Assembly (NCBI RefSeq): GCF_900188425.1
Contig: NZ_FZON01000026.1
Span: forward strand, 1 to 60,213
DNA from: Antarctobacter heliothermus
GTDB lineage: Bacteria; Pseudomonadota; Alphaproteobacteria; Rhodobacterales; Rhodobacteraceae
DNA: 60,213 bases
Reading direction: 5' to 3'
How positions within the stretch are numbered: the first letter of the stretch is position 1; each line of letters opens with the position of its first letter. Below, piece after piece: positions 530 to 20,051 of the stretch. Under the pieces are notes generated by a model. It was not told the origin of the DNA. It saw only the letters and a list, made by a program, of their open reading frames with translations, and did not search any database. Made by a program: the position numbers and the translations under genes.

Positions 530-3500
530 TTATTTGGTCAAAAGCGCGGCTTCGTGCTTTTTCAGCGAGCGACGCGCCGAGGCATAGGCCTTGAGGCCCT
601 CTGCGTGCTCAAGTTCCGGGAAGAGCTCCAGGATCTCCTGGCGTTGCGCGTTGCCGATGCCCTTGAGGCTGTAGTCGCCGGGCTGGAAGCTTTCGGTCCA
701 GGCACCGTTCGACAGGATCACCTCATGGCCTTCGAACATCACATGGATGTAGGCAACGCCATTGGCCTCGACCTCATCAACCCCGTCCAGCCCGGTCAGG
801 TGCTTGGCCGCGACCAGAACCTCACGCTCTTCAAAGTAGAGCGCGGTCTTGTCGTTGGCCACGAGAACCCGGTGGTTGGGCGACACCAGCATGTCATGCT
901 CGGGCAGGTTGTTGCCCAGCGCGCCCTGCTGGATCAGGATCGGCTTGAAGTGCGGCTTGCGTGCCAGATCAAAGCCAGTCAGATCCTTGCGGCCCACCCA
1001 CTTGATCTCCTGGATGCCATTGTCGCGGGTGATCACCCGGTCGCCAACTTCCAGATCCTCGACCAGACGTTCGCCCTGCGGGGTTGCGATCAGCGTGCCG
1101 GGAGTAAAGCAGGGCACGATTTCCTCGATCTCGAAGAAGTCCATGGTGCCGGTGACAGCGCCCGACCCGTCGAGGAACTCGATGGTGCCATCCAGACCGT
1201 TGCCGTTGCTGTCGGCCACTTCGTTGACCAGCCGCCAATCGACGTCCTGCGCCCCTACGCCCGACAGATCCAAGATGTCATAGTCCTGGTTGGGCGGATC
1301 CTCGGGGTTGGCCTGATCGACAAAACCGCCCGAGCCGCCGTCGACTGTGTCGCCGATACCGTCTGCGGCGCTATCGACGATGATGACATCCCGATCGGAC
1401 CCGCCGTTGATGGCATCGTCGCCCGACCCGCCGTTCAGCGTATCGTTGCCTTGACCGCCGATCAGCACGTCATCGTCGTTGCCACCCATCAGGATGTCAT
1501 CGTCGATGCCGCCGTCCAGCGTGTCATTGCCGGAACCGCCTTGCAGCGTGTCATCATCGTCCCCACCGATCAGCGAGTCGTCGCCCAGGAAGCCCTGCAG
1601 CAGGTCGCGGTCGTTTTCGGTATTGGGGTCGATGTCGTCGGTCAGTTCCAGAGCGGCAAAGTTGGAGCCGTCCAGCGTATCATTGCCCTGCCCGCCATCC
1701 AACGAGTCCGATCCGTGCGAGCCGATCAGCAGGTCGTCGCCCTGACCACCCATGATCGAGTCGTCGTCGATGCCGCCATCCAGCGTGTCGTTGCCGCCGC
1801 CGCCGTCGATTGTGTCGGCATCGTCCCCGGTGGCGATGGAATCGTCACCCAGGTTGCCCTCGACATAGTCGCGGCCATCCTCTGTGTTCGGGTCGGCGGT
1901 AAAGCCAAGCGCATTCAGCGGTGTGCCGGGGGCAAAGGACGGGTCGTCGCCTTCATAGTCGGAGAAGGTGTCGGTGCCAGCGATGATCGTGTCGTTGCCG
2001 CTGCCGCCAAAGATGGTGTCCGCACCCTGCACGTCAAACAGAGAGTCGTCGCCCCCGCCCAGCGTGACATAGTCGTTGTCGATGCCCGGGTTGACGGTGT
2101 CATTGCCCCCACCTGCAGCGATTGTGTCAGCGTCGTCGCCGGTCTCGATCAATTCGTCCGAGGCGTCCCCGACAATATTGTCGAGATCGTCCAGCGGATC
2201 GGGATCCTGGTCGAGGCCGTTCAGCGGATCAAGCAACTGGTCGCCCGGCGCTACCGGGAAGACATCGGTGTCGATGCGCGGCGCGGCGTCCTCGGAAATG
2301 GTGATTGTCACCTCGGCAGTGGCAAAGCCACCGTTGCCGTCCGTCACTGTGTAGCTGAACGTATCGGTCCCGGTGAACCCGGCGTCGGGGGTGTAGGTAT
2401 AGCTGTCCCCGCCACCACTCAGCGCCACCGTGCCGTTGGTCGGGTCCGTGGCGATGCTGTCAAGGGTCAGCGGATCGCCATCAGGATCGCTGTCGTTGGC
2501 CAGCACGTCGATGACCACCGGATCGCCCTCATCGGTCTCAGCCATATCCGCCACGGCCACCGGCGGCGCGTTCGGATCGCCCACGGTGACAGTGATGACG
2601 CCAGTGTCGCTGCCGCCATCGGGGTCGGCCAACTGATAGGTAAAGGTGTCGGTGCCGATGAACCCGGCTGCCGGTGTGTAGTCGACAGTGCCATCGCCAT
2701 TCAGAACGGCGGTGCCATTGGCGGGGGGTGTGATGCTGGACACAGTCAGCAGAGCGTTGTCGCCGTCCGGGTCGTCATCATTGGCCAGCGGCGTGATGGT
2801 GACAGTTGTGCCGGAATCAGTCTCTGCCGTGTCGTCAAACGCGGTCGGCGGGATATTCGGGTCAACGTCGTCCGTAACGGTATAGGTGACGGTCGCCGTA
2901 TCGCTGGTTGTGCCGTCCGTGATCGTATAGGTGATCGTGTCGGTCCCGGTGAAGCCGTCATTCGGCGTATATGTCACCGTACCGTCGCCATTCAGCACCG
3001 CGGTGCCGTTGGTAGCAGGGGTGATGCCGGTCACGGTCAGCGGATCGCCGTCCGGGTCCGTGTCGTTGTCACGCGGGTCTATCGTCACAGGCTCACCGAT
3101 GGTGGTGCTTATCGTGTCGTCGACCGCATCCGGACCACTTCCGTCAACGTCCACTGTCGAAAATTCAATGTCCGAGATGATCACGCCCTGTTGGCTGACC
3201 GCGCCGTTGGCATACTCGATCTGAATGCTGGCAACTGGCCCTGCAATCTCGACCAGAACAGAGGTCGTGGCGTCTTCGAACCCGGTTTCGGGTGTGCCTG
3301 TCAGGTCCCCACCCGCGTTTGTGACCCCGGATCCCAGCGTCAGTGTGACCGGAACTGGATTGCCATCGGGGTCAAGCGCGGTGACGTTCACAACATCCTG
3401 GAAACCGCCGCCCGCTTCGGCAAAATCCCCGCCTGTGCCGGTGTCGATATCATTGATGCGGAACGAAACATTCTGCGCCGCGTCAGTATACAAGGAAGTG

Positions 3501-3781
3501 TCGGTGGCCCGAAAGTCGAGCACCGTGGTCGATGTATCGCTCGCCGCGCCCGTGCCCTCGCCAAACAGCTTCAGGAAAGACTGGTTCGAAAATGTCTCAT
3601 CCGGTGCGACGTAGCCGGGAGCATTGAATGTAAAGGCGCTGCTGCCCGCGCTCAATCCGTCATAAGAAATGTCGACGGCAACGCCGCCGGTATCAACGCT
3701 GGCAGAAACGCCACCGTCGGCATCAGCCACGTTGGTGCCAAACGGACCCAGTGCACCCCATTCCAAGACCAAATCAGCCAT
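530..3781 (-). CDS. Secreted cadherin-like/RTX repeat protein with C-terminal Hint domain
   Basis: This 1083-residue acidic, Asp/Gly-rich protein has a unique N-terminal region (1-215). Three tandem cadherin-like (VCBS/tandem-95 type) repeats follow at about 218-302, 312-400 and 407-495, each with NDxDPDGD and a TYTP..GFTGTDTF-like core. Calcium-binding RTX nonapeptides (GGxGNDxLxGG type) fill about 550-840. A Hint module starts at Cys891 (CFTPGTLIAT) and carries a VSPNH block and a late EVILSNGA block. The start at 3781 is preferred because AGAGGG sits just upstream; an ATG 33 bases earlier lacks this. No Sec signal is visible, which fits type I secretion. Calcium-stabilised surface or secreted function is family knowledge; Hint self-cleavage is inference. 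A long antisense frame here is an artefact of repetitive high-GC coding. Confidence 0.9.
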   Translation of the reverse strand: MADLVLEWGALGPFGTNVADADGGVSASVDTGGVAVDISYDGLSAGSSAFTFNAPGYVAPDETFSNQSFLKLFGEGTGAASDTSTTVLDFRATDTSLYTDAAQNVSFRINDIDTGTGGDFAEAGGGFQDVVNVTALDPDGNPVPVTLTLGSGVTNAGGDLTGTPETGFEDATTSVLVEIAGPVASIQIEYANGAVSQQGVIISDIEFSTVDVDGSGPDAVDDTISTTIGEPVTIDPRDNDTDPDGDPLTVTGITPATNGTAVLNGDGTVTYTPNDGFTGTDTITYTITDGTTSDTATVTYTVTDDVDPNIPPTAFDDTAETDSGTTVTITPLANDDDPDGDNALLTVSSITPPANGTAVLNGDGTVDYTPAAGFIGTDTFTYQLADPDGGSDTGVITVTVGDPNAPPVAVADMAETDEGDPVVIDVLANDSDPDGDPLTLDSIATDPTNGTVALSGGGDSYTYTPDAGFTGTDTFSYTVTDGNGGFATAEVTITISEDAAPRIDTDVFPVAPGDQLLDPLNGLDQDPDPLDDLDNIVGDASDELIETGDDADTIAAGGGNDTVNPGIDNDYVTLGGGDDSLFDVQGADTIFGGSGNDTIIAGTDTFSDYEGDDPSFAPGTPLNALGFTADPNTEDGRDYVEGNLGDDSIATGDDADTIDGGGGNDTLDGGIDDDSIMGGQGDDLLIGSHGSDSLDGGQGNDTLDGSNFAALELTDDIDPNTENDRDLLQGFLGDDSLIGGDDDDTLQGGSGNDTLDGGIDDDILMGGNDDDVLIGGQGNDTLNGGSGDDAINGGSDRDVIIVDSAADGIGDTVDGGSGGFVDQANPEDPPNQDYDILDLSGVGAQDVDWRLVNEVADSNGNGLDGTIEFLDGSGAVTGTMDFFEIEEIVPCFTPGTLIATPQGERLVEDLEVGDRVITRDNGIQEIKWVGRKDLTGFDLARKPHFKPILIQQGALGNNLPEHDMLVSPNHRVLVANDKTALYFEEREVLVAAKHLTGLDGVDEVEANGVAYIHVMFEGHEVILSNGAWTESFQPGDYSLKGIGNAQRQEILELFPELEHAEGLKAYASARRSLKKHEAALLTK

Positions 3782-4544
3782 TTTGCGACCCTCTTTCACT
3801 CTAAATGGGGGCATGCCCCGTGCGCAGTAGCGCCGACAATGCGCGCAGCACCGCCCAATTCATTTCGTGCTCGCCAAGTTGCATCGGTACGAAGTGATCG
3901 CGGTGTTCCCTGTCGCGTCAAAGCGCGAACAAAGATGCCATTTTGGCACGGACGGATTCTCCGTCCTCGCTTCACTTCGCATCTCAAAATGCGAGCGGTT
4001 CAGCGGCCGCCCCCGTGGCCTGCAGACTTCACCCCCCAGTTGGGCTTGAAGAAATTATTAAGGCGCGCCCCGCATTCCGAGAAGGAGAAAATTGTAGGAA
4101 CGGGGGCAATTCCGCCGCGCCCGCGCCAGATTTCAGCGATCCGGCCATGAATTCGCCGCGAATTGTTCGCGCAACTTGTTCCGAAATGGAAACACACATC
4201 CACAACATACGGTGTACTTATACAATTTCACCCCGAAATACAGCACAACATGAAATGCTTGGATGCATACTGTTCTGATTTCATGAACAATGATGCGGGC
4301 CGCATTTCTGTCTCACGCCTTGCCTTCTTGTCGCCACAATTCCGTCGGCACTGTCCGCGCCTAGGCACCAATCCTGCAACCCTTGCGCGATTGGTCAAAG
4401 CGGACACCAGACATGTGACGAGAAATTCGAATCATTCGAAGAAAATGTTGGTTATTGCCGCCCCTTTCCGGTCCGTTCTGGTCTGCCACAGCAATTCTGC
4501 GAAAAAGCCTTAGTTGCACACCTTGTCTGACTTACGCTGACGCC
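3782..4544. other. 763-base intergenic region between divergent genes
   Basis: No gene is supported. The stretch is more AT-rich than its neighbours, especially 4190-4300, and separates the divergently read RTX/Hint gene and the GSCFA gene, so it should hold both promoters. Short open frames here lack ribosome-binding sites and family resemblance. No clear hairpin-plus-T-run was found. Confidence 0.5.
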
Positions 4545-6415: not shown

Positions 6416-6492
6416 TATTCCCGTCAGATCTCCAAAGGCTGCGTTAAGGGCCGCTTGCCAATTTCCCCTTAGTGGGAATTTGGAGAGAAGCT

Positions 6493-8511
6493 GTGGGAAC
6501 CGCCATTATCGTGCTGGCCGGGCAGAGCAATGCCGGCCGGATTGCCGGTGAAGTCCAGGATGCACTGGACGCCACCTATGGTGCCGGGAATTACATCTTG
6601 GTGCGCGCCTATTCGTCAGGGGCGCCGCTGACCAGCGCGCGCGACGGCAAGACCGACTGGCAAACCCCCGGCGAAATGCGCGCTGTCATCGTCGATGAAA
6701 CCGTGGCCGCGCTACGCGCGACACCGGACGGCTATGTCGCCGGGGTGATCTGGGTGCAGGGAGAAGGCGACACCGACATGTCCGGCACTCCTGCTGACTA
6801 CGCACCTGATTTTCATGCCCTGATGGGAGAGTTCCGCGTCGGGGTCGCCATGGCGTTGGGCAACCGTCTCACCGGGGTAGAGGATGCACCTGTCGTGATC
6901 TCTGGCCTGTCCGACAACGCACCAGCCGCCCCGGAGCGTCAGTATTGGGATGCCATTCAGGCAGAGTTGATCGACCTTGGCGCGGACAACCCCGGCATCG
7001 TCACAGTGCAACCCGACGCCGTCCTGACAGCCGCGCGCATCACACCCGCCCAGATGTTTGCCGACGGGCTACACTATTCCGATGCCGCCAGCGTGGCCTT
7101 GGCCGACAGTCTTGTTGCGGCCCTCGTCCAGATGGAAACGCAGGGCGGCGGTGGCGGACATAGTACCCAAGGCACCGCGGGCGCGGACCGGCTTGTGGGC
7201 ACCAGCGGTGACGACATCTTTACCGTGAACCACAGCGGTGACTCCATCGTGGAGGCGGACAACGCCGGCATCGACCTTGTGCGCGCCTCTGTCTCGTTTG
7301 CGCTGCGCGACTACGGCATGTCGTTGGAAAACCTCACCCTGCTGGGCACGGCCGACCTGAGCGGCACAGGCAACGGGGCGAACAACATTCTGACCGGCAA
7401 CAGCGGCAACAATGCGCTGAACGGCGCCTGGGGCGATGACGTCATCTATGGCATGGCGGGCGACGACACCTTGCAGGATACCAAAGGCACCGACACCCTG
7501 ATTGGCGGCACTGGGGACGACGTCTATTTCGTCGATGATGCAAACGACGTGGTGATCGAATACAAGGGTCAGGGCCACGACCTGATCAATTCGTTTGTCT
7601 CCTACCGTCTCTGGGCCGATGCCCCAGAGGTCGAGGATCTGATCCTGACCGGCAGTGACAATATCGACGGCGCAGGCAATGGCTATGACAACCACATCAT
7701 CGGCAACGCGGGTGCCAATTTTCTGGACGGCGCGCGCGGGCGCGACCTGCTGGAGGCGGGCGGCGGGGCGGATACGCTGATGGGACAGGCTGGTGCCGAT
7801 ACCCTGCTGGGTCAGGGTGGCGACGACGTGCTGTACGGCGATCATGAAGACGGCGCATCGACCACCTTTGCCGGGCAGGCCTTTCGCCTGTATCAGGCAA
7901 CCCTTGCGCGGGCACCCGATGCCAATGGCTATGGCTTCTGGACCGAACAACTGGCCGACGGGGCCAATTATTTCAACGTCATCACCGGCTTTGTCCAAAG
8001 CCCCGAGTTTCAGGCGACCTACGGGTCGCTGACCGACGATGCCTTTATCGAAATGCTGTACAACAACGTGCTGGACCGCGCCTCTGATCCGAACGGCAAG
8101 GCGGTCTGGCAGGCGTATCTGGACGATGGCGCCACGCGGGAATTTGTGGTGTCGCACTTTGCCGAAAGCCCCGAATTCCAGCGCATGATGCAACAGGAAC
8201 TGGAGGCATGGACCCGCGCGCTTGGTCCCGATGACGTGCTGGACCCGGGTGCCGGGGATTCCACGCTATCAGGCGGGGACCTGTCCGACAGCTTTGTCTT
8301 CAGACCGTCGTCGGACGGCACCCACATCATCACCGACTTTGAAGAATGGGACGTTCTGGATCTGGCTGCCTTTGGCTATGCGGACGCCAACGCCGCCCGG
8401 TCAGAATTCTACCAACATGGCGACGATCTGATTTTCGACGATGAAGGTGTCACCATTATCCTGCAAGACACCACCATGGATTCGCTCAGCGAACAGGGTC
8501 TGATGATCTGA
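6493..8511 (+). CDS. SASA-type carbohydrate esterase fused to RTX repeats and DUF4214
   Basis: This 672-residue modular exoprotein has an N-terminal sialate-O-acetylesterase-like (SASA/SGNH) domain at 1-215 with LAGQSNAG (nucleophile Ser12), WVQGEGD and DGLHYSD (Asp191, His194). RTX calcium-binding repeats follow at about 225-450. A DUF4214 domain spans about 460-565 (AFRLYQATLARAPDANG and the matching LYNNVLDRASDPNG). An acidic C-terminal tail may be the type I secretion signal. The GTG at 6493 is preferred over one at 6472 because GGAGA lies at 6482-6486. No Sec signal is present. It is probably secreted and deacetylates a carbohydrate; that activity is inferred from the fold. Confidence 0.85.
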   Translation: MGTAIIVLAGQSNAGRIAGEVQDALDATYGAGNYILVRAYSSGAPLTSARDGKTDWQTPGEMRAVIVDETVAALRATPDGYVAGVIWVQGEGDTDMSGTPADYAPDFHALMGEFRVGVAMALGNRLTGVEDAPVVISGLSDNAPAAPERQYWDAIQAELIDLGADNPGIVTVQPDAVLTAARITPAQMFADGLHYSDAASVALADSLVAALVQMETQGGGGGHSTQGTAGADRLVGTSGDDIFTVNHSGDSIVEADNAGIDLVRASVSFALRDYGMSLENLTLLGTADLSGTGNGANNILTGNSGNNALNGAWGDDVIYGMAGDDTLQDTKGTDTLIGGTGDDVYFVDDANDVVIEYKGQGHDLINSFVSYRLWADAPEVEDLILTGSDNIDGAGNGYDNHIIGNAGANFLDGARGRDLLEAGGGADTLMGQAGADTLLGQGGDDVLYGDHEDGASTTFAGQAFRLYQATLARAPDANGYGFWTEQLADGANYFNVITGFVQSPEFQATYGSLTDDAFIEMLYNNVLDRASDPNGKAVWQAYLDDGATREFVVSHFAESPEFQRMMQQELEAWTRALGPDDVLDPGAGDSTLSGGDLSDSFVFRPSSDGTHIITDFEEWDVLDLAAFGYADANAARSEFYQHGDDLIFDDEGVTIILQDTTMDSLSEQGLMI

Positions 8512-8541: not shown

Positions 8542-8982
8542 CTACCCGTCCAAGCGATCCTTCAGAAACTGGCGAATGTCCAACAGCGATTTTTCATCCA
8601 TCGAGACATAGACCAGCGCCATGTTCACCCGTTCGCGCACCATTTCGCCCGGAAAAGGCAGATAGCTGAGTTCCCGCGACCCGAAGGACGGTGAGGCGGT
8701 GCCCACCTGCCATTCGGTCTTCAACTCCACATCCACCAGTTTCAGTGCCGTATCGCTGCCCGCGCCGGGGCGCTCAAACGGCACCCCCGCCAGCCGCAGA
8801 TACGACGCCTTGTCGGCGGCCTGCACAAAGCCGTCGATGAACTGCGTGGCCAGCACCTGCAATTCAGCCGCCTGGTCCTCCGGCTTGAGATGGCTGTGCA
8901 GATGATCGTGGTCATGTGGGTGGTTGTGATCATGCGGATGGTGATGATGACCGATGTGACCGTTCACGATGTCATGGGGCAT
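8542..8982 (-). CDS. Small protein with extreme His-rich N-terminus; candidate metal chaperone of the gdmH operon
   Basis: This 146-residue protein has 14 histidines in its first 31 residues ([20 protein letters not shown]), alternating with Asp/Pro, as in nickel- or zinc-storage segments of HypB, UreE and SlyD-type proteins. The remaining ~110 residues form an unrecognised domain with [15 protein letters not shown] and [19 protein letters not shown]. The start at 8982 has an ideal AGAGGAGG site and overlaps the end of the upstream gene by 11 bases. It is the last gene of the riboswitch-controlled gdmH operon. GdmH is nickel-dependent, so delivery or storage of nickel for it is the natural hypothesis. 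It has no P-loop and is not HypA or HypB. Confidence 0.7.
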
Positions 8983-9361
8983 TGGCTGCCTCCTCTTGTT
9001 CAAAGACCGTCAGCGCGGTGTTCAGCGCATTGATCGCAGCCGGCAGTCCGCCATACAGCGACATCTGCCAGATCGCCTCGGCGATTTCCTCACGGCTCAG
9101 CCCCGTCTTGCGTCCGCCCGCGATGTTCACCGCCAATTGCGGCGCGGTCTGGCCGCCAAGGGCGGTCAGCGCGGCGATGGTGGCCAGATAGCGGTCGCGC
9201 AGCGGCAGGCCGGGACGCGCGTATTGCTGGCCATAGGCACAATCGACCACGGTTTGCGCCATTCCGGGCAGGAGGTGGCCATAGCGCTGATCCAACACCT
9301 GTTCCATGCCGGGGTTCAACTGTTCGGCCAGCTTGCGCCCGATTTCCAACGTCTCTGACAC
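8972..9361 (-). CDS. Carboxymuconolactone decarboxylase-family (CMD/AhpD-like) protein
   Basis: This 129-residue protein matches the CMD fold: [16 protein letters not shown], then [24 protein letters not shown], as in PcaC-type proteins. The CxxC pair of AhpD peroxidase relatives is absent, so a thiol peroxidase role is unlikely. It starts with GTG at 9361, five bases after the gdmH stop, and overlaps the His-rich gene downstream, so it is co-translated with both. A true carboxymuconolactone decarboxylase makes little sense here because no aromatic-ring pathway is nearby. Function in guanidine metabolism is unknown. Confidence 0.8.
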
Positions 9362-9366
9362 GTCTC

Positions 9367-10617
9367 TTACCTTTTTGTCCGGCCGTGCCAGCGCTTGCCT
9401 TCGAATTCGCCATGCGGAATGGCCACGGGCTTGTCGATATGCCGGGTGTGTTTGCCCATATTGCCGCTGGCCACAAGGCTGCCCAGCACGTCGACAATGA
9501 CCCGCGTACCCATCAGCGCGGTGATGTCCGACGTGTCATAGGGCGGTGACACCTCGACCAGTTCCATGCCGCAAATCCCCTCTGCCGCGACCTTGGACGC
9601 CAGCGCCAAGGCCTCACGCGGGAGGAACCCGCCCGGCTCCGGCCAACCGGTGCCGGGGACAAAACCACAGTCGATGCTGTCGATGTCAAACGACATGTAA
9701 ACCATGTCGACCCCGTCCCAAGCCATTTCCAGGGCCATCTCGGCGGTCTTGTCGATGCCCATCTTTTCCATGTCGCCCATGGTGATGATGTTTGTCTCGC
9801 GATCCCGCGCGACCTTGACCGCCTCACGCGGCACCTGCCATCCGCCGATACCGACCTGCACAAGGTTCTTGGCCGGAACGTTCGGCAGCAGGGTCGAGTG
9901 GAACCACGGCGTCGTGTGCATCCGCTCATCCAGATCCTTTTCCTGAATGTCGGCGTGGCGGTCGAAATGGACGATACCTATCTTTTTCGACGTACATTCC
10001 GAGATGCCGCGCACACAGGGAAAGCCGATCGAATGGTCGCCGCCGATCATCACCGGCAGAGAACCGGAGCTGAACACATGGCTGACAGCGCGGCTGATCT
10101 GATCAAAGGATTTTTCCAGATTGGCGGGAATGGTGAACACATCCCCCGCATCGCACAGTGTCATTTGTTCGCGCAGATCCACGCCCAGTTCATAGTTATA
10201 CGGCGTATACAGCGCGCTGATCTTGCGCAGCCCCTGCGGGCCAAACCGCGTGCCGGGACGGTAGGTGGTGCCGCCGTCGAAGGGGATGCCAAGGATCGTG
10301 GCGTCGTAGTCGCCGACCTCTGTCACGTCCTCGGCATAGGGTGCCTTGAGAAAGGTGTTGATGCCGGCGAAATGCGGCAGTTCGCCCCGCGCGAAGGTGG
10401 GGATGGATTTGTCCTCGATGCTGTCGGCCCCGGTCAGACCCATGCGCAGCGCCCAGCGGCGTTCTTCGTCCCAGCGGCCTTCGGGCAGATCCGCCTCGGC
10501 CTTCATCGACTTCCAGCCTTGCAGCTTGGTCAGGTCCGGGTGATGGGCGCGGCGATCCGTGCCGATCAGGTCGGCGGGATGGTGGGACCGGCGGCGGTCA
10601 GCGGGCGTGCAAAACAT
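9367..10617 (-). CDS. gdmH: Guanidine hydrolase (ureohydrolase superfamily, nickel-dependent)
   Basis: This 416-residue protein belongs to the arginase/agmatinase superfamily, with a long N-terminal extension (1-100). Metal ligands are all visible: His195 (GGDHS), Asp219/His221/Asp223 (HFDRHAD), Asp311 and Asp313 (SFDIDSID). The loop [16 protein letters not shown] with Trp325, and [10 protein letters not shown], are hallmarks I recall from cyanobacterial GdmH (Sll1077), whereas agmatinases carry GTGTPxxGG. GdmH hydrolyses guanidine to urea and ammonium. The start at 10617 has AAGGAG eight bases upstream and overlaps the ABC ATPase gene by 20 bases. Position behind a guanidine-I riboswitch and an importer supports guanidine over agmatine. 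No urease is present in the window. Confidence 0.9.
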
Positions 10618-11368
10618 GGGTGCGCTCCTTGAGAGTCTGAAAGGGGATGCCATCGTCGCGGGCATCGAAATCATAGGTGATCGTGGCAGCATTCTTTTCC
10701 GGGTCGGTCGCGTCCCAGACCGGCTTGTCAAAGGCCCAGACGCGGTCGCCCAGCTTGAACGCCTCGCCAAGATCGTGGGTGATCATGAAGATGGTCATGC
10801 CGCTTTGGTCCCGCAGTTCCTGCAGGAAATCATGCATGACAATCTTGGTGCCCGGATCCAGCGCGCCAAAAGGTTCGTCCAGCAGCAGTATCTTTGGCTC
10901 ACCGGCCAGCGCCTGCGCAATGGCCAGCCGTTGCAGCATCCCGCCCGACAGATCGGCGGGGTATTGATCCGCCACATGCTCCAACCCGATGCGGGCCAGC
11001 GTAGCGCGGGCCTTGGCGCGTTCTTCGGCCCGGTCGGCGCGGCTCAGCCGCCCCCAGAACGACGACCGGAACGCGCGCGGCGCAATCAGGTTGTTCAGGA
11101 CCGTCTGATGCGGCAGCACCGAATAGCGTTGAAAGACAATGCCGTGGTCGCGCCCCGGCTCGCGCGCCATCGGTGCGCCGTCGATGTGGATCTCACCGCG
11201 TGTCGGTTGTTCCTGCGCCAGCAGCAGCCGCAAAAAGGTGGTCTTGCCGCAGCCCGAGGCTCCGACGATGGACACGAACTGACCCTTGGGGACGCTGACA
11301 TCGATATTTTCGATGATGGTGCGTTTTCCATAGGTCTTGGACAGGCCCTTGATGGTGACATAGCTCAT
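10598..11368 (-). CDS. ABC transporter ATP-binding protein, guanidine import operon
   Basis: This 256-residue NitT/TauT-type ATPase has Walker A GASGCGKTT, signature LSGGMLQRLAIAQAL and Walker B ILLLDEPFGALDP, followed by a switch His in MITHDLGEA. The start MSYVTIKGLSKTYG at 11368 overlaps the permease stop by four bases (ATGA), and its 3' end overlaps gdmH. The protein would energise uptake by the permease and binding protein encoded just upstream. Guanidine as substrate is inferred from the riboswitch and gdmH. Confidence 0.88.
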   Translation of the reverse strand: MSYVTIKGLSKTYGKRTIIENIDVSVPKGQFVSIVGASGCGKTTFLRLLLAQEQPTRGEIHIDGAPMAREPGRDHGIVFQRYSVLPHQTVLNNLIAPRAFRSSFWGRLSRADRAEERAKARATLARIGLEHVADQYPADLSGGMLQRLAIAQALAGEPKILLLDEPFGALDPGTKIVMHDFLQELRDQSGMTIFMITHDLGEAFKLGDRVWAFDKPVWDATDPEKNAATITYDFDARDDGIPFQTLKERTHVLHAR

Positions 11369-12177
11369 AGCGCCTCTCCATCCCAAGGGAAGGCACGTCT
11401 GGACAGCAACCGCAGCGCCAGATCCAGCAAGAAGGCCAGCAGTGTGATCCAGACGACGTAGGTCAGGATCACGTCCATCGCCAAATATCGCCGCACCAGA
11501 AAGATGCGGTAGCCCAGCCCCTGATCCGAGGCGATGGCCTCCGCAGCAATCAGGAACAACCACGCGGGCCCCAGCGACAGCCGCACCGCCGCAATCAGGC
11601 GGGGCAGCACCTGCGGCAGGACCACATGCAGCGCGATGGCAGTGGAACTGGCCCCAAGTGTCTGTGCCTTGACGAATTGTTCGCTGGGCAGGTCAATCAC
11701 CCGCTGCGACATGTCGCGGATCAGGAAGGGCGTGATGCCAATGACAATCAGCGCCACCTTGGACACCTCACCCAGCCCCAGCAGGATAAACAGGACCGGC
11801 AGGATCGCCAACGGTGGCACCATCGAGACCACGGACACAAAGGGCGCAAAGCTCTTGCGCAAGTAGGGCAACATGCCAATGCCGATCCCGGTGATCAATG
11901 CCGTGGTTGCGGCGATCAGCACCCCCAGCGCCAGACGGCGCAGGCTGGCGAAGGTGTCGTTCCAGAACAGGATCTCGCCGGAGCGGCGGTCAGGTTCGGT
12001 CAGCAACCGTTCGGCGGTGGCAAGGATCGTCGTGGGCGCGGGCAACAGCTTGTCCTGCGGGTTCACCGCCAACCGCATGTCCGATCCGATCATATAGACA
12101 AGCAGTACCGCCAGAAAGGGCAGTGTGGCGAGCACCGTCGCCAACAGGGCACCCGGTTTTCGATTGATCCAGCGCAT
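11365..12177 (-). CDS. ABC transporter permease, guanidine import operon
   Basis: The 270-residue integral membrane protein has about six hydrophobic segments and the cytoplasmic EAA-type loop (KAQTLGASSTAIALHVVLPQ) of BPD_transp_1 permeases in the NitT/TauT/Ssu class. It starts MRWINRKPGALL and ends in an ATGA overlap with the ATPase. It follows the substrate-binding protein after a 96-base gap that contains a strong hairpin. The cognate ligand is inferred as guanidine. Confidence 0.88.
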   Translation of the reverse strand: MRWINRKPGALLATVLATLPFLAVLLVYMIGSDMRLAVNPQDKLLPAPTTILATAERLLTEPDRRSGEILFWNDTFASLRRLALGVLIAATTALITGIGIGMLPYLRKSFAPFVSVVSMVPPLAILPVLFILLGLGEVSKVALIVIGITPFLIRDMSQRVIDLPSEQFVKAQTLGASSTAIALHVVLPQVLPRLIAAVRLSLGPAWLFLIAAEAIASDQGLGYRIFLVRRYLAMDVILTYVVWITLLAFLLDLALRLLSRRAFPWDGEAL

Positions 12178-12239
12178 GGCGATCCTCGGCGGGCAGAGGC
12201 CCCGGATCAGGTCCGGGACACAAGTCGTCGTGGCAATAT

Positions 12240-12265
12240 GCGGCCCGCCTATGTCAGCGGGCCGC
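12240..12265 (-). terminator. Intra-operon hairpin after the binding-protein gene
   Basis: A perfect 9-bp stem GCGGCCCGC / GCGGGCCGC with the 8-base loop CTATGTCA lies nine bases past the stop of the binding-protein gene. No T-run follows, so it is more likely an mRNA-stabilising or attenuating hairpin, a common way to express more binding protein than permease. Confidence 0.65.
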
Positions 12266-12273
12266 GCGGAGGT

Positions 12274-13332
12274 TTACAACGCGCCGTCGGCCGCCATCTG
12301 CATGTAGGTGGTATCAAAGCGGAACCTGACGTTCGCCGGGTCGCCGGTGGTGGTGCCATCCGGGTAAGAGACTCCGACGAAATCCGCGCTTGGCGCGCCC
12401 TCACCCAGAATGCCTTTGTCGAACAGGAATTCGGCCACGTTGACCATGGTCGTGGGCAGCTCGGCCCCCATGGTGAACGTCACCGCGTCAGCCGGATCAA
12501 AGAACATCTCTGTCGAGTCCAATTGCGCCTTGTAGCCCGCCAGATCGGTGCCAGAGGCCTCTGCCATGGCGGTCAGGACCGCCTCATCGCCAGCGGCCAT
12601 CAGGCCCATGACCTCATACCAAGCTCCGGCCATGGCCTTGCCGAAATCGGGATTGGCGGCCAGCGTGTCGGTGTTGACCACCATCAGGTCGATGATCTCG
12701 CCGGGGATGTCGGAACTGTCGAACAGTTTCTTGGCGTTGGGCTCTTCGAGGATGGTCGAGACCAGCGGGTTCCATGTCACCACCGCCTCGACATCCGCTG
12801 TGGTAAAGGCGGCGATCATGTCCGCGTCCGAGGTGTTCAGCACCCCACCCAGATCGCGTTCCTGCAGGCCGACGCTGTCCAGCGCCCGCGCCAGCAGATA
12901 GTGCGAGACCGACAGTTCCACCAGGTTCACCGGCTTGCCCGCCAGATCCGCCAGGTCTCCGTCGCCCTTGACGATCACCGCGTCATTGCCGTTGGAAAAA
13001 TCGCCGACGATCAGCGCCGTGGTGTCCACGCCGCCGCCCGCCGGGATCGACAGGGTGTCCATGTTGGTGGCCGACACACCGTCAAAGGCCCGGGCCGTGT
13101 ACTGGTTGATCGACTCGACGTAATCGTTGATCTGCACGATCTCGACGGTGATGCCGTATTTCTCGGCCCACTTGTCCATGATCCCGGACTCGTCCAGATA
13201 TCCCCAGGGCATCCAGCCCACATAAATCGACCATGCGACCCGAAAGTCGGATTTTTCCTGAGCCGTGGCGGGTGTGGCCGCCGCCAGCGCCAGTGCCGCG
13301 CAGGTGGCCACAAAATGGCGTCTTGCAAACAT
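12274..13332 (-). CDS. ABC transporter substrate-binding protein, guanidine/urea-carboxylase-region type
   Basis: This 352-residue protein has a Sec signal (MFARRHFVATCAALALAAA..ATA) with cleavage expected near residue 24. The mature part resembles NitT/TauT-like binding proteins that databases often call putative urea transporter components found beside urea (now guanidine) carboxylases. Conserved pieces include FRVAWSIYVGWMPWGYLDESG near the mature N-terminus. The start at 13332 has GAGGGG upstream. It is the first gene behind the guanidine-I riboswitch at 13423-13530, so guanidine is the likely ligand. It acts in the periplasm. Confidence 0.87.
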   Translation of the reverse strand: MFARRHFVATCAALALAAATPATAQEKSDFRVAWSIYVGWMPWGYLDESGIMDKWAEKYGITVEIVQINDYVESINQYTARAFDGVSATNMDTLSIPAGGGVDTTALIVGDFSNGNDAVIVKGDGDLADLAGKPVNLVELSVSHYLLARALDSVGLQERDLGGVLNTSDADMIAAFTTADVEAVVTWNPLVSTILEEPNAKKLFDSSDIPGEIIDLMVVNTDTLAANPDFGKAMAGAWYEVMGLMAAGDEAVLTAMAEASGTDLAGYKAQLDSTEMFFDPADAVTFTMGAELPTTMVNVAEFLFDKGILGEGAPSADFVGVSYPDGTTTGDPANVRFRFDTTYMQMAADGAL

Positions 13333-13422
13333 GGGTGTCCCCTCATGCAACGTCCCGCCTTTGATTGCTGATCGAGGCACCGAGGCGGAACTTGAGAGAT
13401 CGGTGAAACCTCAACGCGCAGT

Positions 13423-13530
13423 GCTCTCCCGGGATTTTGCCCCGCCGTGTACCGGCAGGGAATTTGCCCCGTCGGTGGCATCTCTTGGACCAGACCCTCT
13501 GGGAGGAGAGACGAGGCGGAACCCTAGATA
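13423..13530 (-). promoter_or_regulatory. Guanidine-I riboswitch (ykkC class)
   Basis: Read on the minus strand, three conserved blocks of the ykkC/guanidine-I aptamer occur in order and spacing. CTAGGGTTCCG is at 13517-13527, CTGGTCCAAGAG at 13482-13493, and ACACGGCGGGG followed by CAAAATCCCGGGAGA at 13425-13450. These match the family consensus as I recall it (AGGGUUCCG, CUGGUCCGAGAG, ACGG-GGGAUAAAAGCCCGGGAGA). The aptamer ends about 90 bases before the binding-protein start at 13332. No intrinsic terminator with a T-run is evident in between, so control may be at translation or by another platform. It should switch on the importer and gdmH when guanidine is bound. Confidence 0.9.
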
Positions 13531-13698
13531 CCCTGCTGACCCCAGCATCGGGGGTGGGGCCGAGTTGTCACGCGGGTTGCATCAAACGCAGGCGGCGCAA
13601 TCCAGTATTGCCCAAATAACAGGCTCAATTTTTGTCCAATGGTGTGAAATGCGGCAGCGGGCATTGCGTACGACCTGCCGCGGGACAAAACTCGCCGC

Positions 13699-14493: not shown

Positions 14494-15246
14494 TCAGGCC
14501 GCGTCGATCCGTTCCTGCGCCGGTTGTGTCAATGACACCTCGCGGCATTGGCCCAGAAAATCCACCGCGTGCCAGATCAGCGCGCCATCGCCCGTGCAAC
14601 TGAGCACCGGCTGTCCTTCGAGCAGCGGGTTGGTGCACAATTCGGCCAGACCGTAGGCGCCGTCCCAGCGCCCGAAGGCAAAGACATGCCGCAATTGTTC
14701 CTGCAAGGCCCATGTCCTCTGCCCAGCCTCCAGCGCCGCGATGGTATTGCGCGAGTTCTCTGCATCAGGCTGCCCGACGCCAAACACGAACCGCTGGCCG
14801 ATGGACACGATGAAGGCATGGGCAGACCCCGCCATCAAGTGCATCGCGCTAGCCGGGTGATCCGCCCGCCGGTTCCACAGTTCGGCATAGTCGCCGTAGA
14901 CCCCGGTCTCCATCATCTGGTCCGACCCGTTGAGTTCAAGCAGGCCGCTGTCCTCCGCCTCTGGTCGGCCGTGCCAATTGATCTCTCGGTGCCAGGTACA
15001 GACGTCGTCGCGCAAGGCCACAACACCGGCAAAGCCCTCGGCCCGCAACAGCGCCATCAGCGCAGCGTCAGGCAGATCCGCCAGAGCAGAGGCCCCGCGC
15101 ACGTCCGGCCGGTTGGGCGGAATCCGGATATCGGCGTAGAGCGATCCGCATTGCATCCAGTGCACGTTTGTCTCGCAGTCATTGAACGACGGCGATTTGA
15201 GCCAGGCGCGATGCCAATGTCCCTGAATATCCCCGGATGTGATCAT
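14494..15246 (-). CDS. Conserved protein of unknown function in ABC-importer operon
   Basis: I do not recognise this 250-residue family with confidence. Visible features are an N-terminal GHWHRAWLKSP, a VHWMQCGSLYADIRIP strand, CTWHREINWHG and a late VFAFGRWDGAYGL. It is rich in Trp/His pairs and predicted beta strands, which would suit a lipocalin- or nitrobindin-like barrel; that is a guess. There is no signal peptide. The start overlaps the stop of the isochorismatase-like gene by four bases, so it is translationally coupled to that enzyme and probably serves the same pathway. Confidence 0.7.
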   Translation of the reverse strand: MITSGDIQGHWHRAWLKSPSFNDCETNVHWMQCGSLYADIRIPPNRPDVRGASALADLPDAALMALLRAEGFAGVVALRDDVCTWHREINWHGRPEAEDSGLLELNGSDQMMETGVYGDYAELWNRRADHPASAMHLMAGSAHAFIVSIGQRFVFGVGQPDAENSRNTIAALEAGQRTWALQEQLRHVFAFGRWDGAYGLAELCTNPLLEGQPVLSCTGDGALIWHAVDFLGQCREVSLTQPAQERIDAA

Positions 15247-15857
15247 TCTGCTGCCATTTGGCGATTGCCCATCGCGCCGATGATCTCATCCGCGCTCAGA
15301 ACCGCCCCTTCCTGAAGGTATTCCATCGCGTTCAACGACGCCTGATGCGCCTGCGGCGAGGTGCCGCCAACGCAATCCGCCACCACGCGACAATAGTAGT
15401 CGCTCTGATGCCCGTCGGCGAAACTGTAGTGGACGCAGACATCCGTCATGCCGCCGACAAAGATCAGCGTTTCCGCCTTCAACCCACGCAGGAGGATCTC
15501 CATCTCGGTTCCAAAAAAGCACGAGTAGCGCCGCTTGGGCACATGGTAGTCGCCGGGCTTGTACCCCATCTCCTCAAAGGCAACCGGCGTGCCCGGATCA
15601 CCCTCCATGCAATGGATATCCTCGGAACCATCCAGTTCACGGCCATAGTCGATCCTGTCACGACGGTGGATTTCCTGGACAAACACGACCGGAATGCCAT
15701 TGGCATGCGCTGCATCCACAACGCCGCGTGCGCGCATCATGTTCTCGGCATAGCCTGGCATGTGCGGGATGCCGCCTTCGGACTTCAAGAAAGCGGATTT
15801 CTGGATGTCGATAACCAGAAGAACTGTGTTGCCGACAAGAGTGGGTTGGCGGGCCAT
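15243..15857 (-). CDS. Isochorismatase-family cysteine hydrolase
   Basis: The 204-residue protein has the expected catalytic triad: Asp17 in LLVIDIQK, Lys108 in HVPKRRYS and Cys141 in GGMTDVCVHY with the usual preceding cis-peptide region. Members include nicotinamidase, N-carbamoylsarcosine amidase and ureidoacrylate amidohydrolase; most cleave C-N bonds. The start at 15857 has GGAGG upstream. It lies at the end of a polyamine-type ABC operon, so hydrolysis of an imported amide or carbamoyl compound is inferred. Exact substrate is unknown. Confidence 0.85.
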   Translation of the reverse strand: MARQPTLVGNTVLLVIDIQKSAFLKSEGGIPHMPGYAENMMRARGVVDAAHANGIPVVFVQEIHRRDRIDYGRELDGSEDIHCMEGDPGTPVAFEEMGYKPGDYHVPKRRYSCFFGTEMEILLRGLKAETLIFVGGMTDVCVHYSFADGHQSDYYCRVVADCVGGTSPQAHQASLNAMEYLQEGAVLSADEIIGAMGNRQMAAE

Positions 15858-15869
15858 GATGCGCCTCCT

Positions 15870-16667
15870 TCAGCTGTTGGATTGATCCGCGCCCATCAGG
15901 CGCGGCAGGTCGCCCCAGCGGGCAACGGCGGAAAAGACAAGCACGGACACGGCGATAAAGGTGATCGCCGCCACCGCCATCGTTGGCGTGTAGCCGTTCC
16001 TCAGAGAGTTGAAGATTTGCAGGGTCACGGTCGCGTAGCCGGAGGCCGAGACAAAGAACATCACGATGAATTCGTTGAACGACAGCACCAGCACGAAAAA
16101 GAACCCAGAGATCGTGTAGGGGATCGTCTGCGGCAGGATCACGGTGCGGAAGGTGACGGATTCCGTTGCACCCATTGTGGCCGCCGCGTCCAGATGCGCG
16201 CGGTCGATGCTTTGCAACCCGATAGAGATCGTCACCATCGGCAGCGCCATCAGCAAGACCGCATGGCTGACCACCCCGGCCCAGAGCGCGCCAAGCCCGC
16301 CAAGAAAGCTCCAGAAAAAGCCAAGCCCGACGCCAAAGACAATCGGCGGCACGGCAAAGGGCATCGACCCCAGCGCCGCCAGCGTGCGGGACAGTTTCGA
16401 TCCCGTCGACCACAGCAGATAGGCCAGCGGCCAGGCCAGCAGAACCGCAAGACTGGCCGCGCCGACAGCGACAATCACCGAATTGCCCAGCGCCTGCGTC
16501 CAGACGGGTTCAGAGACAAAGAACTCGCCAAACCGGGCCAGCGTCGGGTCGCGCGGGGGGAAAAACATGCTGCGCCCACCGTTCAGTGCCGCGCCACAGA
16601 CCACCGCAATGGGCAGCGCCAGCAACAGCGCGCAAAACGCCATGTAAAGAGATCCGACAACCCGCAT
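15870..16667 (-). CDS. ABC transporter permease (PotC-like)
   Basis: The 265-residue permease begins MRVVGSLYMAFCALLL at 16667, where its ATG shares one base with the stop of the preceding permease gene (TGATG). It has about six membrane spans and an EAA loop of the form DAAATMGATESVTFRTVILP. It resembles PotC, the second permease of spermidine/putrescine-type importers. It pairs with the 16667-17644 permease. Substrate is undetermined. Confidence 0.86.
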   Translation of the reverse strand: MRVVGSLYMAFCALLLALPIAVVCGAALNGGRSMFFPPRDPTLARFGEFFVSEPVWTQALGNSVIVAVGAASLAVLLAWPLAYLLWSTGSKLSRTLAALGSMPFAVPPIVFGVGLGFFWSFLGGLGALWAGVVSHAVLLMALPMVTISIGLQSIDRAHLDAAATMGATESVTFRTVILPQTIPYTISGFFFVLVLSFNEFIVMFFVSASGYATVTLQIFNSLRNGYTPTMAVAAITFIAVSVLVFSAVARWGDLPRLMGADQSNS

Positions 16668-17644
16668 CAGCGCGCCTCTGCCCATGTGTTGATCCGGTGC
16701 CCAAGCGCCAGACAGACCCCGGCGGACATCAGCAGGATCACCGCCTGCGCGGCCCCGAAGGGCGCGTTCAGATTGGCGCCGCGGATGTTGGAATAGATCG
16801 CCACGGCAGTCGAATGCTGCGCCGGTGCGGCAAAGACGGTGACGGCAACGTAAGTGCCCAGCAAGAACACGAACAGCAGCAATGTTGTGCCAAACAGCGG
16901 CAGGCGGATCGCGGGCAGGATCACGGTGCGGGCCACGCACCACCCCCCTGCCCCCATGGTCCGCGCCGCCTCGGACTGTGAGCGGTCAAGCCGCGACAGC
17001 GCCGGATACAGCAAGATCACCGCATAGGGCCAGACGAGGTAGCTCATGGTCAGGATGGTGGCGAATTGCGAGGTCTTGAACTTGACGTTGCGCGGGCTTG
17101 CCAGCCCCCAGTCACGCAGCACCTGAAACCAGCCTGTGTCCTTCAGCCATTGGGTCAGGCCGGTGGATTTGAACAGTGCCGGCAGACCGGAGTTGTTGGA
17201 CAACAAGATGTCCCAACCCATGACGATAAACACCTCTGACAGCGACAGCGACGACAGGATGAACACCAGCCACGCCGCCTGCGCACGGCGCGACAGCCGG
17301 GACAGCAGCAACGTGAACGGCAGCGCCGTCAGCACCGCCAACAAGGAGGCGATAACCGCATACCAGAACGAAAAGCCAAGCTGTTGCAGGTAAAGAAAAG
17401 TCACATCATCGGGCCAGAGTGCGCCGACGAAGAACCTTTGGTAGTTGGCCAAGGTAAAATCCCAGACCCAGGCGGCCCCTTCGATCTTTCGGCCAAAGCT
17501 GATGACGAAGACCAGCAGGAACGGCACGACGCATAGCGTCACGATCACCGCCGTCAGCGCCCAGCTCAGCAGCCGCACGGCCGAGAGCGGTTTGGCTGCG
17601 CGCGCCGTTTCAGGCCCCGTTTCGATATGTTCGGCGACCGTCAT
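16667..17644 (-). CDS. ABC transporter permease (PotB-like)
   Basis: The 325-residue permease has an N-terminal cytoplasmic stretch, about six membrane spans and the EAA loop SEAARTMGAGGWCVARTVILP. It matches PotB-type permeases. It overlaps the ATPase gene upstream by four bases and the PotC-like gene downstream by one base, so the three are a tightly coupled unit. An unusually long periplasmic loop follows the third span (LFKSTGLTQWLKDTGW region). Confidence 0.86.
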   Translation of the reverse strand: MTVAEHIETGPETARAAKPLSAVRLLSWALTAVIVTLCVVPFLLVFVISFGRKIEGAAWVWDFTLANYQRFFVGALWPDDVTFLYLQQLGFSFWYAVIASLLAVLTALPFTLLLSRLSRRAQAAWLVFILSSLSLSEVFIVMGWDILLSNNSGLPALFKSTGLTQWLKDTGWFQVLRDWGLASPRNVKFKTSQFATILTMSYLVWPYAVILLYPALSRLDRSQSEAARTMGAGGWCVARTVILPAIRLPLFGTTLLLFVFLLGTYVAVTVFAAPAQHSTAVAIYSNIRGANLNAPFGAAQAVILLMSAGVCLALGHRINTWAEAR

Positions 17645-18717
17645 TCGGCAGCCACAGCCAGGGCTTCGTGCGCCGTGGGAGCGGGGAAGATGTGCAAGGC
17701 ATCCGGCGGCAGGCGGACCTCTGTGGTATCGCCGACCTGAAAAATCTTGCCGCCCTCGCCCGCCGCGTATTCCACCACCATCCGACCCAGTGCGGACTCA
17801 AGGTGGTATTCCCGGATCGGGCCAAGATCGCGTACGAAGGTGATCTTGGCGGGCAGCCGGTTTGCGCCGGGCTCCTCGTCCAGACAGGCGCGCTCTGGCC
17901 GGATCGCCACGCGCACCAGCGAGCGACCGATAAAACGCGGCTCAGCCACCAGATGCGTGGCCCCGATGCGGATGCCGCCCGGCACGGTCATCCCGTCAAA
18001 GAAGTTCGCCTTGCCGATGAAATCCGCGACAAAGGCGTTTTGCGGCTTGTGATAGATGTCCTGCGGTGACCCGACCTGTTCTACCCGCCCGTTGGACATG
18101 ACCACGATGCTGTCGGCCATGGTCATGGCCTCGCGCTGATCGTGGGTGACGACGATGGTGGTGATGCCCAACCGTTGTTGCAGCAGCCGCAGTTCCACCT
18201 GCATCTCTTCGCGCAACTTGGCGTCCAGCGCCGACATCGGTTCGTCCAGCAAAAAGACCTCTGGTTCCTGCGCCAGCGCGCGGGCTATCGCAACCCGCTG
18301 GCGCTGTCCGCCCGACAGTTGCCCGATCCGGCGATCGCCAAAGGCCGACAGTTGCACCAGATCCAACAGTTTGCCTGCCCGGTCCGCCGCCTCTGATCGG
18401 GAGACGCCGGAAATGTGCAGCGAATAGGCCACGTTGTCCCGCACCGTCAGATGCGGGAACAGGGCGAAACTCTGGAACACCATGCCGAACTTGCGACGGT
18501 GCGCGGGCAGATCGGTGATGTTGCGGTCCCCTAGCAGGATCACCCCGCCAGAGGGCGCCTCCAGCCCCGCCACCATCCGCAACAAGGTTGTCTTGCCACA
18601 GCCCGACGGCCCCAACAGCGCCGTCAGTTGCCCTTCGGCAAAGCTCAGGTTCACCAGGTCGACGGCACGGGTGCCGCCGAAGGTTTTTGAGATGCTCTTG
18701 AGAACAAGACCGGACAT
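17641..18717 (-). CDS. ABC transporter ATP-binding protein (PotA-like)
   Basis: The 358-residue ATPase has Walker A GPSGCGKTT near residue 40, signature LSGGQRQRVAIARAL, Walker B VFLLDEPMSALD and a switch His in VTHDQREA. A C-terminal extension (about 240-358) reads as a TOBE domain, typical of PotA/CUT1-type importers. It starts seven bases past the binding-protein stop. Together with neighbours it forms a full importer for a polyamine-like, amino-acid-like or heterocyclic cation. Confidence 0.87.
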   Translation of the reverse strand: MSGLVLKSISKTFGGTRAVDLVNLSFAEGQLTALLGPSGCGKTTLLRMVAGLEAPSGGVILLGDRNITDLPAHRRKFGMVFQSFALFPHLTVRDNVAYSLHISGVSRSEAADRAGKLLDLVQLSAFGDRRIGQLSGGQRQRVAIARALAQEPEVFLLDEPMSALDAKLREEMQVELRLLQQRLGITTIVVTHDQREAMTMADSIVVMSNGRVEQVGSPQDIYHKPQNAFVADFIGKANFFDGMTVPGGIRIGATHLVAEPRFIGRSLVRVAIRPERACLDEEPGANRLPAKITFVRDLGPIREYHLESALGRMVVEYAAGEGGKIFQVGDTTEVRLPPDALHIFPAPTAHEALAVAAE

Positions 18718-18723
18718 GACGGT

Positions 18724-19797
18724 TTACGCCCCGGCCAACATCTTGTCCCAGCTTTCCTTGATGAACGTTTCCTTGTCCAGATAGGCCTCATAGGCGGGCT
18801 TGATCGAGGGTGTGCCGGACACAAAGGCAAACTCTTCATCCGTCAGATCCGTCTTGGACTGATCGACAAGAGGCGCTGTGCCGATCTTGCGGCTCATGAT
18901 CGCCTGCGTGGCCGGATCGGACGAGAAGTTGATGAACTCTGCCGCCTCATCCGCCTTGTCCGACAGCGAGGACAGGCACCACGATCCATAATCCTGCGGG
19001 TTGCCCTCCTTGGGGAAGATCGGCTTGATCGGAAAGCCGTCCAGCGCCATCAGGTTGGCCACATCGAGGTAGTATTGCCCGCCGATCACGTCGCCGTTTT
19101 TCATCGACTGTTCCATCTGGCTTTCAGCCGACCACCAGAGCGCCACATTGGGTTTGATCTCTGCCGCCTTTTCGATGATCGCCAGAATGCCCTCGTCCGT
19201 GGCAAAGGTCGCCTCGCCGTCAAAGAAGGTCGCCGCGACAATGTCGAGGAACTGCGAGTTGTAGTTGCGCGACAGGCCCAGAGAGGACTCGTAGATGGTA
19301 CTGTCCCAGAACTCTGCCCAGCTTGCAGGGGCGTCTACCTCACCCGGATTGATGACCATGGCGGTGAACCACGACATGGCACCAACGCCCAACGGGCCCT
19401 CCGGGGCCTCGAACACGAAATAAGGGTCCAGGTTGGAGGCCGCCGGGATCGCCTTGAGGTTCAGCGGTTTGAGCAACCCGCCAATGCGGCTGGCCTTGAT
19501 CAGCGTGTCACGCGCATACAACGACAGGTCCGCAGGCACGCTGCCCGCCGCCGTCGCCTGCTGCATCGTCACCAGCCAGTCGGTCGAGTTGGGCTGAGTC
19601 ACCGACTCGACCGTGATGCCTGTCGCCTCGGTGAAGGCGGGATAGACGAATTCCTTGAAGCTGTTTTCAAAGTACCCGCCATAAGAGCCGATCTTCAGGC
19701 TGCGGCTTTGCGCGATCAATGGCGTCCCCAGCACGCTGGAGGCCGCAAGGCTGGCCGCGCCTGTCTTGAGCAAGGTCCGTCGGTTCAGTTTGATCAT
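18724..19797 (-). CDS. ABC transporter substrate-binding protein (PotD-like), Tat signal
   Basis: The product, about 357 residues, starts MIKLNRRTLLKTGAASLAAS: a twin-arginine signal with cleavage near IAQS. The mature part (KIGSYGGYFENSFKEFVYPAF, then the TWLV-like and YARDTL segments) belongs to the extracellular solute-binding family that includes PotD and related binding proteins. Two starts are possible. The ATG at 19797 sits ten bases from GAGGGG, while the ATG at 19806 would leave almost no spacer. The family is broad (polyamines, opines, thiamine, phosphonates), so the ligand is open. Confidence 0.84.
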   Translation of the reverse strand: MIKLNRRTLLKTGAASLAASSVLGTPLIAQSRSLKIGSYGGYFENSFKEFVYPAFTEATGITVESVTQPNSTDWLVTMQQATAAGSVPADLSLYARDTLIKASRIGGLLKPLNLKAIPAASNLDPYFVFEAPEGPLGVGAMSWFTAMVINPGEVDAPASWAEFWDSTIYESSLGLSRNYNSQFLDIVAATFFDGEATFATDEGILAIIEKAAEIKPNVALWWSAESQMEQSMKNGDVIGGQYYLDVANLMALDGFPIKPIFPKEGNPQDYGSWCLSSLSDKADEAAEFINFSSDPATQAIMSRKIGTAPLVDQSKTDLTDEEFAFVSGTPSIKPAYEAYLDKETFIKESWDKMLAGA

Positions 19798-20051
19798 GAT
19801 GGTCATTCCCCTCGTTCGCAGCCGATCCCGACCCAGCGAGGGATCCGGTGGAGGCTGCCCGTGATGACATCATGAACGCGCCGGTACGCACGAGCGGTCA
19901 AAGGAACTGACCGCAAAAGGACCATCCGTCCGTGAAACTGAACCTTTTTTGTGCAAACGCGCAGGACCGATGCGCTTTCTTAATCGCGGCAGATACCGCA
20001 TCGGCTTTTTCGCGCCAGCCTGCCCCCACACAAACGACTCGGAGAGGTTTC

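Follow-up and report, generated by a model that had tools for sequence, protein, structure and literature searches.

Nickel chaperones such as UreE and the HypA/HypB pair combine a flexible histidine-rich segment with a compact domain, and their genes adjoin those of the nickel enzymes. Among the relatives of the guanidine hydrolase GdmH, the MefH/DmgH enzymes are described as requiring Ni2+ and the co-expression of HypA/HypB, and nickel chaperones are said to activate GdmH (PMC11399263). Genes for HypA and HypB are reported to be often present in operons with sll1077-like genes, the Synechocystis operon encoding GhaA/GhaB (PMC8390497, PMC12930504). For the guanidinase of Nitrospira inopinata, nickel loading is called unclear in its description, as no such chaperones were found (PMC11410670). 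Here we analyse a stretch of 60,213 nucleotides of Antarctobacter heliothermus (the window; GCF_900188425.1, contig NZ_FZON01000026.1), which carries at positions 8542-13538 of the minus strand an operon with a Guanidine-I riboswitch, an importer of the ATP-binding cassette (ABC) type, a ureohydrolase related to GdmH and a small histidine-rich protein, hereafter called the partner.

Operons of this type are already known, and the new content of this one is the conserved histidine-rich partner. Judging from its sequence, the operon very probably serves the uptake of guanidine and its hydrolysis to urea and ammonia. We lean towards a reading in which this is a guanidine nitrogen-acquisition operon whose partner is a maturation factor dedicated to the GdmH of Alphaproteobacteria, and the partner is a good candidate for a protein that loads nickel into the enzyme.

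The enzyme and its riboswitch

The ureohydrolase was compared with the proteins in the PDB, where it matched Sll1077 (7esr/7oi1) with 547.7 bits and the N. inopinata guanidinase (9fek) with 537.0 bits. The next solved relative, a guanidinobutyrase, scored 170.3 bits, and the chains of metformin hydrolase 132-135 bits. Over the aligned part (around 350 residues) the identity was 65% with Sll1077 and 63% with the N. inopinata enzyme. Thr105, His222 and Trp313 (N. inopinata numbering) are given as the residues by which guanidinases are classified, and Glu344 and six metal ligands are described as well (PMC11410670); all ten have their equivalents here: T118, H234, W325 and E355, and H195, D219, H221, D223, D311 and D313. 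These metal and specificity residues are invariant in 80 of 80 related gdmH loci, the 80 top-scoring among at least 561 confirmed matches, all alphaproteobacterial by their titles and close relatives rather than independent events.

In a phylogenetic tree, the enzyme grouped with both characterised guanidinases, in such a way that 15 guanidinase rows were parted by a 100/100 branch from six other ureohydrolases (a guanidinobutyrase, a guanidinopropionase, proclavaminate amidinohydrolase and three paralogues from the same genome), in a tree with long outgroup branches, of which the tool warned, and from which the weakest own-genome paralogue (L005) was excluded. The agmatinase model TIGR01230 was missed, with 167.4 bits for a cut-off of 174.3. 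On these sequence grounds the enzyme is a GdmH-type guanidinase, which would use a nickel site to hydrolyse guanidine, with urea and ammonium as products. An in-frame stop was seen within an otherwise conserved gdmH at 7001-8242 of one locus from a metagenome-assembled genome (L096).

The aptamer that a preliminary description of this DNA had located at 13425-13527 of the minus strand is real, and the covariance match extends slightly further, to 13538. The Rfam model RF00442 gave 76.2 bits, above the gathering threshold of 63, with an E-value of 8.3e-12 and model positions 1-107 complete. No second Guanidine-I match was found in the whole genome at E 0.001. The presence of the riboswitch was also surveyed, as was that of HypA (see below), in the genomes of 49 of the 80 gdmH loci and in those of the class sample described in the next section. 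An over-threshold match was detected in 50 of 59 surveyed genomes with gdmH (G401 and G161, which have no gdmH, were left out), and in the 43 other genomes with a checkable position the riboswitch always shares the strand of gdmH and precedes it by 2.7-3.5 kb. Guanidine bound by the leader RNA would switch the operon on, and the operon indicates riboswitch-controlled use of guanidine in many Alphaproteobacteria, above all in roseobacters.

The histidine-rich protein encoded with GdmH

The partner is encoded downstream of gdmH in 79 of the 79 assessable loci, the 80th (L102) stopping inside gdmH at a contig edge. Its start precedes the end of gdmH in 47 of the 79 loci and lies within 200 bases in 78, the exception being L061, with 433 bases; these start codons were chosen by a script, and they are uncertain for L082, L093 and L103-L106. 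Clustering of the open reading frames of the 80 loci, inspected by eye for further recurrent operon genes, returned little beyond the five core genes and their shadow frames.

Both genes were also counted in two genome samples, which have in common the A. heliothermus genome and G143, with gdmH counted at E 1e-100, so that fragments fall outside the counts. In the class sample (385 genomes), gdmH was present in 11 genomes; the partner occurred beside it in each of these and also in two others, 13 in all. In the phylum sample (398 genomes), both were found in the same seven genomes, again adjacent. The only carriers of the partner without gdmH in the class sample were G161 and G401, whose copies are truncated at the N-terminus and have no gdmH within 1.5 kb on either side. 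A first look at 61 genomes had detected the partner in nine, with gdmH adjoining it in all nine. In one of these nine, G003, an additional, broken copy of the partner is present near a contig end, with no gdmH in view. In Sinorhizobium fredii NGR234 and GR64, gdmH is followed by divergent partners with 31-33% identity. No description of this protein was recognised in the literature searched; the founding paper on GdmH (10.1038/s41586-022-04490-x) may hold one.

At the G401 locus (L128, G401:C49), the Guanidine-I riboswitch is still present together with truncated copies of the binding protein and of the partner, the latter ending in a histidine-rich C-terminal tail. Permease, ATPase and gdmH were not seen between the truncated genes, which corresponds to either a deleted operon or a misassembly. 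An in-frame fusion of the binding protein and the partner was rejected, since their reading frames differ next to the deletion or misassembly.

The protein consists of a variable, mostly histidine-rich N-terminus followed by a conserved alpha/beta core of around 110 residues. Among 62 divergent family rows, the segment before the core has a median of 38% His, with at least four His in 60 of them, and H29 and H31 are nearly invariant; the seven invariant positions are all within the core. A second AlphaFold2 model had a mean predicted local distance difference test score (pLDDT) of 85.0, with block means over 90 from residue 41 onwards and a low-confidence N-terminus. The modelled core shows two helices, a run of beta-strands with long hairpins and a C-terminal helix. 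Searches against Pfam and NCBIfam gave no match at E 0.001 (the best Pfam E-value among the 62 members was 0.016, to an unrelated family), nothing was found below E 0.41 among PDB sequences, and the model matched neither PDB nor viral folds at E 0.001. Neither did UreE or any other known chaperone family appear by sequence or by fold in Pfam, NCBIfam or the PDB. Kinship with COMM domains was considered and rejected, as the top Foldseek rows of the first model had E-values of 0.17-0.6 and TM-scores of 0.2-0.4 and became weaker with the better model.

Possible roles of the partner

The partner is probably a maturation factor of GdmH, probably for nickel, that acts in place of GhaA/GhaB. A maturation factor is the simplest explanation because the protein is mostly His-tailed, is encoded with the enzyme, seemingly decays without it and stands where HypA/HypB stand elsewhere. 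In such a mechanism, the flexible N-terminus would hold Ni2+, and the conserved core would dock on GdmH or on an assembly intermediate and hand the metal over, doing the job of GhaA/GhaB (HypA/HypB-like) in Synechocystis. We infer that nickel is the metal carried. That the protein founds a new enzyme-dedicated nickel-delivery family with an unseen fold, replacing the HypA/HypB-like pair for GdmH in Alphaproteobacteria, is a broader proposal for which we see the chances as even.

Searches for the known chaperones are part of this picture. No HypA (PF01155) was matched in the operon or in the A. heliothermus genome at E 0.001, in a search that matched HypA in 7 of 14 control genomes, over the cut-off in four. 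HypA was undetected in 38 of 59 other genomes with gdmH, many of them drafts or metagenome assemblies in which an absence is weaker. In all 21 gdmH genomes with a HypA match, the coordinates place it either on a different contig or no closer than 20 kb to the operon. For HypB, which was searched in the A. heliothermus genome, the three PF02492 matches at E 0.001 were CobW, UreG and MeaB, and this UreG reached 73.6 bits with the NCBIfam hypB model, whose cut-off is 121.2.

Several observations weigh against a dedicated nickel maturation factor. No His or Cys is invariant in the core, Asp57 being the sole invariant residue among the possible ligands. The His tail is nearly lost in two of the 62 rows (L020, with 3 His in 12 residues, and L023, with 1 in 9) and short in L103-L106, which rules out nickel storage by the tail as the conserved function. 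The partner was absent from all four actinobacterial gdmH loci examined, so it is not a general requirement of GdmH. Besides, HypA is present over the cut-off in 19 of the 59 genomes, and the nickel of GdmH could come from UreE and UreG, which this genome also encodes. As for the control of the operon, folding of the 219-base leader revealed neither a clear terminator nor a clear sequestration of the start site.

Part of this evidence would fit a structural or regulatory subunit of GdmH, which stabilises the hexamer or gates its activity and whose His tail provides incidental metal buffering: conservation sits in the core (which in 62 rows holds seven invariant positions, none of them His or Cys) and not in the tail, two rows have almost no His, and the gene overlap in 47 of 79 loci would agree with a fixed ratio between the subunits. 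We consider such a subunit unlikely, as the recombinant N. inopinata guanidinase is described as an active hexamer when produced in E. coli in the absence of any such protein (PMC11410670) and 60 of the 62 rows keep their four or more His before the core. Quite improbable in our opinion is that GdmH is loaded by UreE/UreG or unaided, with the partner merely storing or detoxifying nickel. The UreE and UreG genes, the four actinobacterial loci without partner and the N. inopinata enzyme, for which its description reports no nickel chaperones found (PMC11410670), speak for this possibility, but a general buffer would be expected without gdmH too, and no untruncated copy lacking gdmH was present in the 385 and the 398 genomes sampled; the low-His members also argue against storage. 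Finally, a substituted guanidine (e.g. methylguanidine) or another guanidino compound as the true substrate, guanidine being merely the ligand of the RNA, is highly improbable, for although dimethylguanidine and metformin are given as substrates of related nickel ureohydrolases (PMC11399263), the 63-65% identity to two guanidinases, the specificity pair Thr118/Trp325 and the mere 132-135 bits of the metformin hydrolase chains oppose it.

With the partner as a putative maturation factor, the nickel loading of guanidinases that lack HypA/HypB-like chaperones, called unclear for N. inopinata (PMC11410670), becomes testable in Alphaproteobacteria through a specific small conserved protein.

Operon layout and comparison with known guanidine systems

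The features of the operon are collected in Table 1. The gene order of the preliminary description, with a ureohydrolase carrying HFDRHAD and GTGWPEPGG between the importer genes and those for the CMD and histidine-rich proteins, was found in full on the minus strand. Its view of a tightly packed operon also held, since the coordinates show overlaps or short gaps everywhere except for the 96 bases between the binding protein and the permease, the sole long spacing among the genes. The ATPase gene overlaps the permease gene by 4 bases and gdmH by 20 bases.

Table 1. Features of the guanidine operon in the A. heliothermus window.
Feature	Positions	Strand	Basis
Guanidine-I riboswitch aptamer	13424-13538	minus	Rfam RF00442 covariance model
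Binding protein of NitT/TauT-type ABC importer, probable guanidine binder	12274-13332	minus	TIGR03427
Intergenic gap of 96 bases with inverted repeat	12178-12273	minus	repeat spotted by eye in the sequence
ABC importer permease	11365-12177	minus	PF00528, 72.6 bits
ABC importer ATPase	10598-11368	minus	PF00005, 116.5 bits
gdmH, predicted nickel-dependent guanidine hydrolase (guanidinase), 416 residues	9367-10617	minus	PDB matches, residues, tree
CMD-family protein	8972-9361	minus	PF02627, 53 bits
Histidine-rich GdmH partner, 146 residues	8542-8982	minus	conservation beside gdmH

The binding protein matched TIGR03427, named "putative urea ABC transporter substrate-binding protein", with 524.9 bits for a cut-off of 333.9. 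Guanidine is a likelier ligand than urea because the gene stands beside a GdmH-type enzyme and a guanidine riboswitch, and the protein is a probable guanidine binding protein of an importer that would bring guanidinium into the cell. The warning that generic labels mislead was supported: NCBIfam offers sub-cut-off agmatinase models for the enzyme and a "urea" transporter name for the binding protein. The operon suggests that the annotations agmatinase family protein and urea transporter are erroneous for such genes in Alphaproteobacteria. Importer homologues are present in 75 of the 80 gdmH loci, including two (L096 and L097) in which they are just 44-56% identical and lie 3-5 kb upstream. The remaining five loci (L086 and L103-L106, three of them titled SAR116) keep gdmH and the partner with no importer homologue. 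In one SAR116 locus (L103), a DctPQM tripartite ATP-independent periplasmic (TRAP) transporter follows gdmH and the partner at 8863-11732 and is a candidate TRAP guanidine importer.

The claim of a guanidine nitrogen-acquisition operon stands as a prediction from these genes. The word "self-contained" attached to it was too strong, because urease alpha, UreE and UreG are encoded on a different contig of the genome. With urease encoded elsewhere, the urea formed can be used and the pathway can close, the remaining nitrogen being released, as we propose, by this urease.

The CMD gene, which the preliminary description had listed in the operon, has no homologue in any of the 80 gdmH loci, the constant partner in the class being the histidine-rich protein. 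It lies between gdmH and the partner, whose start it overlaps by 11 bases, in A. heliothermus and its sister G002 (89% identical), and is absent from four of the six loci of the genus. A functional core role was therefore rejected, and the gene looks like a recent lineage-specific accessory insertion.

Other genes were observed in the rest of the window. A protein of 1094 residues with Big_9, cadherin-like and RTX repeats and a Hint_2 domain is encoded at 530-3814 (minus strand), and another of 679 residues with RTX repeats, DUF4214 and a weak SASA-type esterase match at 6472-8511 (plus strand), converging on the operon end. On the other side, at 15243-19806 (minus strand), a hydrolase of the isochorismatase family adjoins another ABC importer (permease, ATPase with a TOBE domain, and binding protein).

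In its anatomy, the partner shares with UreE and HypA/HypB the flexible His-rich segment, the compact domain and the position of its gene beside that of a nickel enzyme, and differs from them in having no sequence match in Pfam, NCBIfam or the PDB and no significant fold match. Its fold likeness to COMM domain proteins is insignificant, and is a lead only. The N. inopinata locus has in common with that of A. heliothermus a Guanidine-I riboswitch, a guanidinase 63% identical and the lack of nickel chaperone genes nearby, but it is described with an APC permease (PMC11410670) where A. heliothermus has an ABC importer. With the operon of Synechocystis PCC 6803, as described, it shares the Guanidine-I control, GdmH (Sll1077) and an ABC importer of the SsuA/SsuB kind (PMC8390497, PMC12186494, PMC12930504). 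Whereas Synechocystis has GhaA/GhaB, the operon of A. heliothermus is without a hypA/hypB-like gene and carries the histidine-rich partner and the CMD gene.

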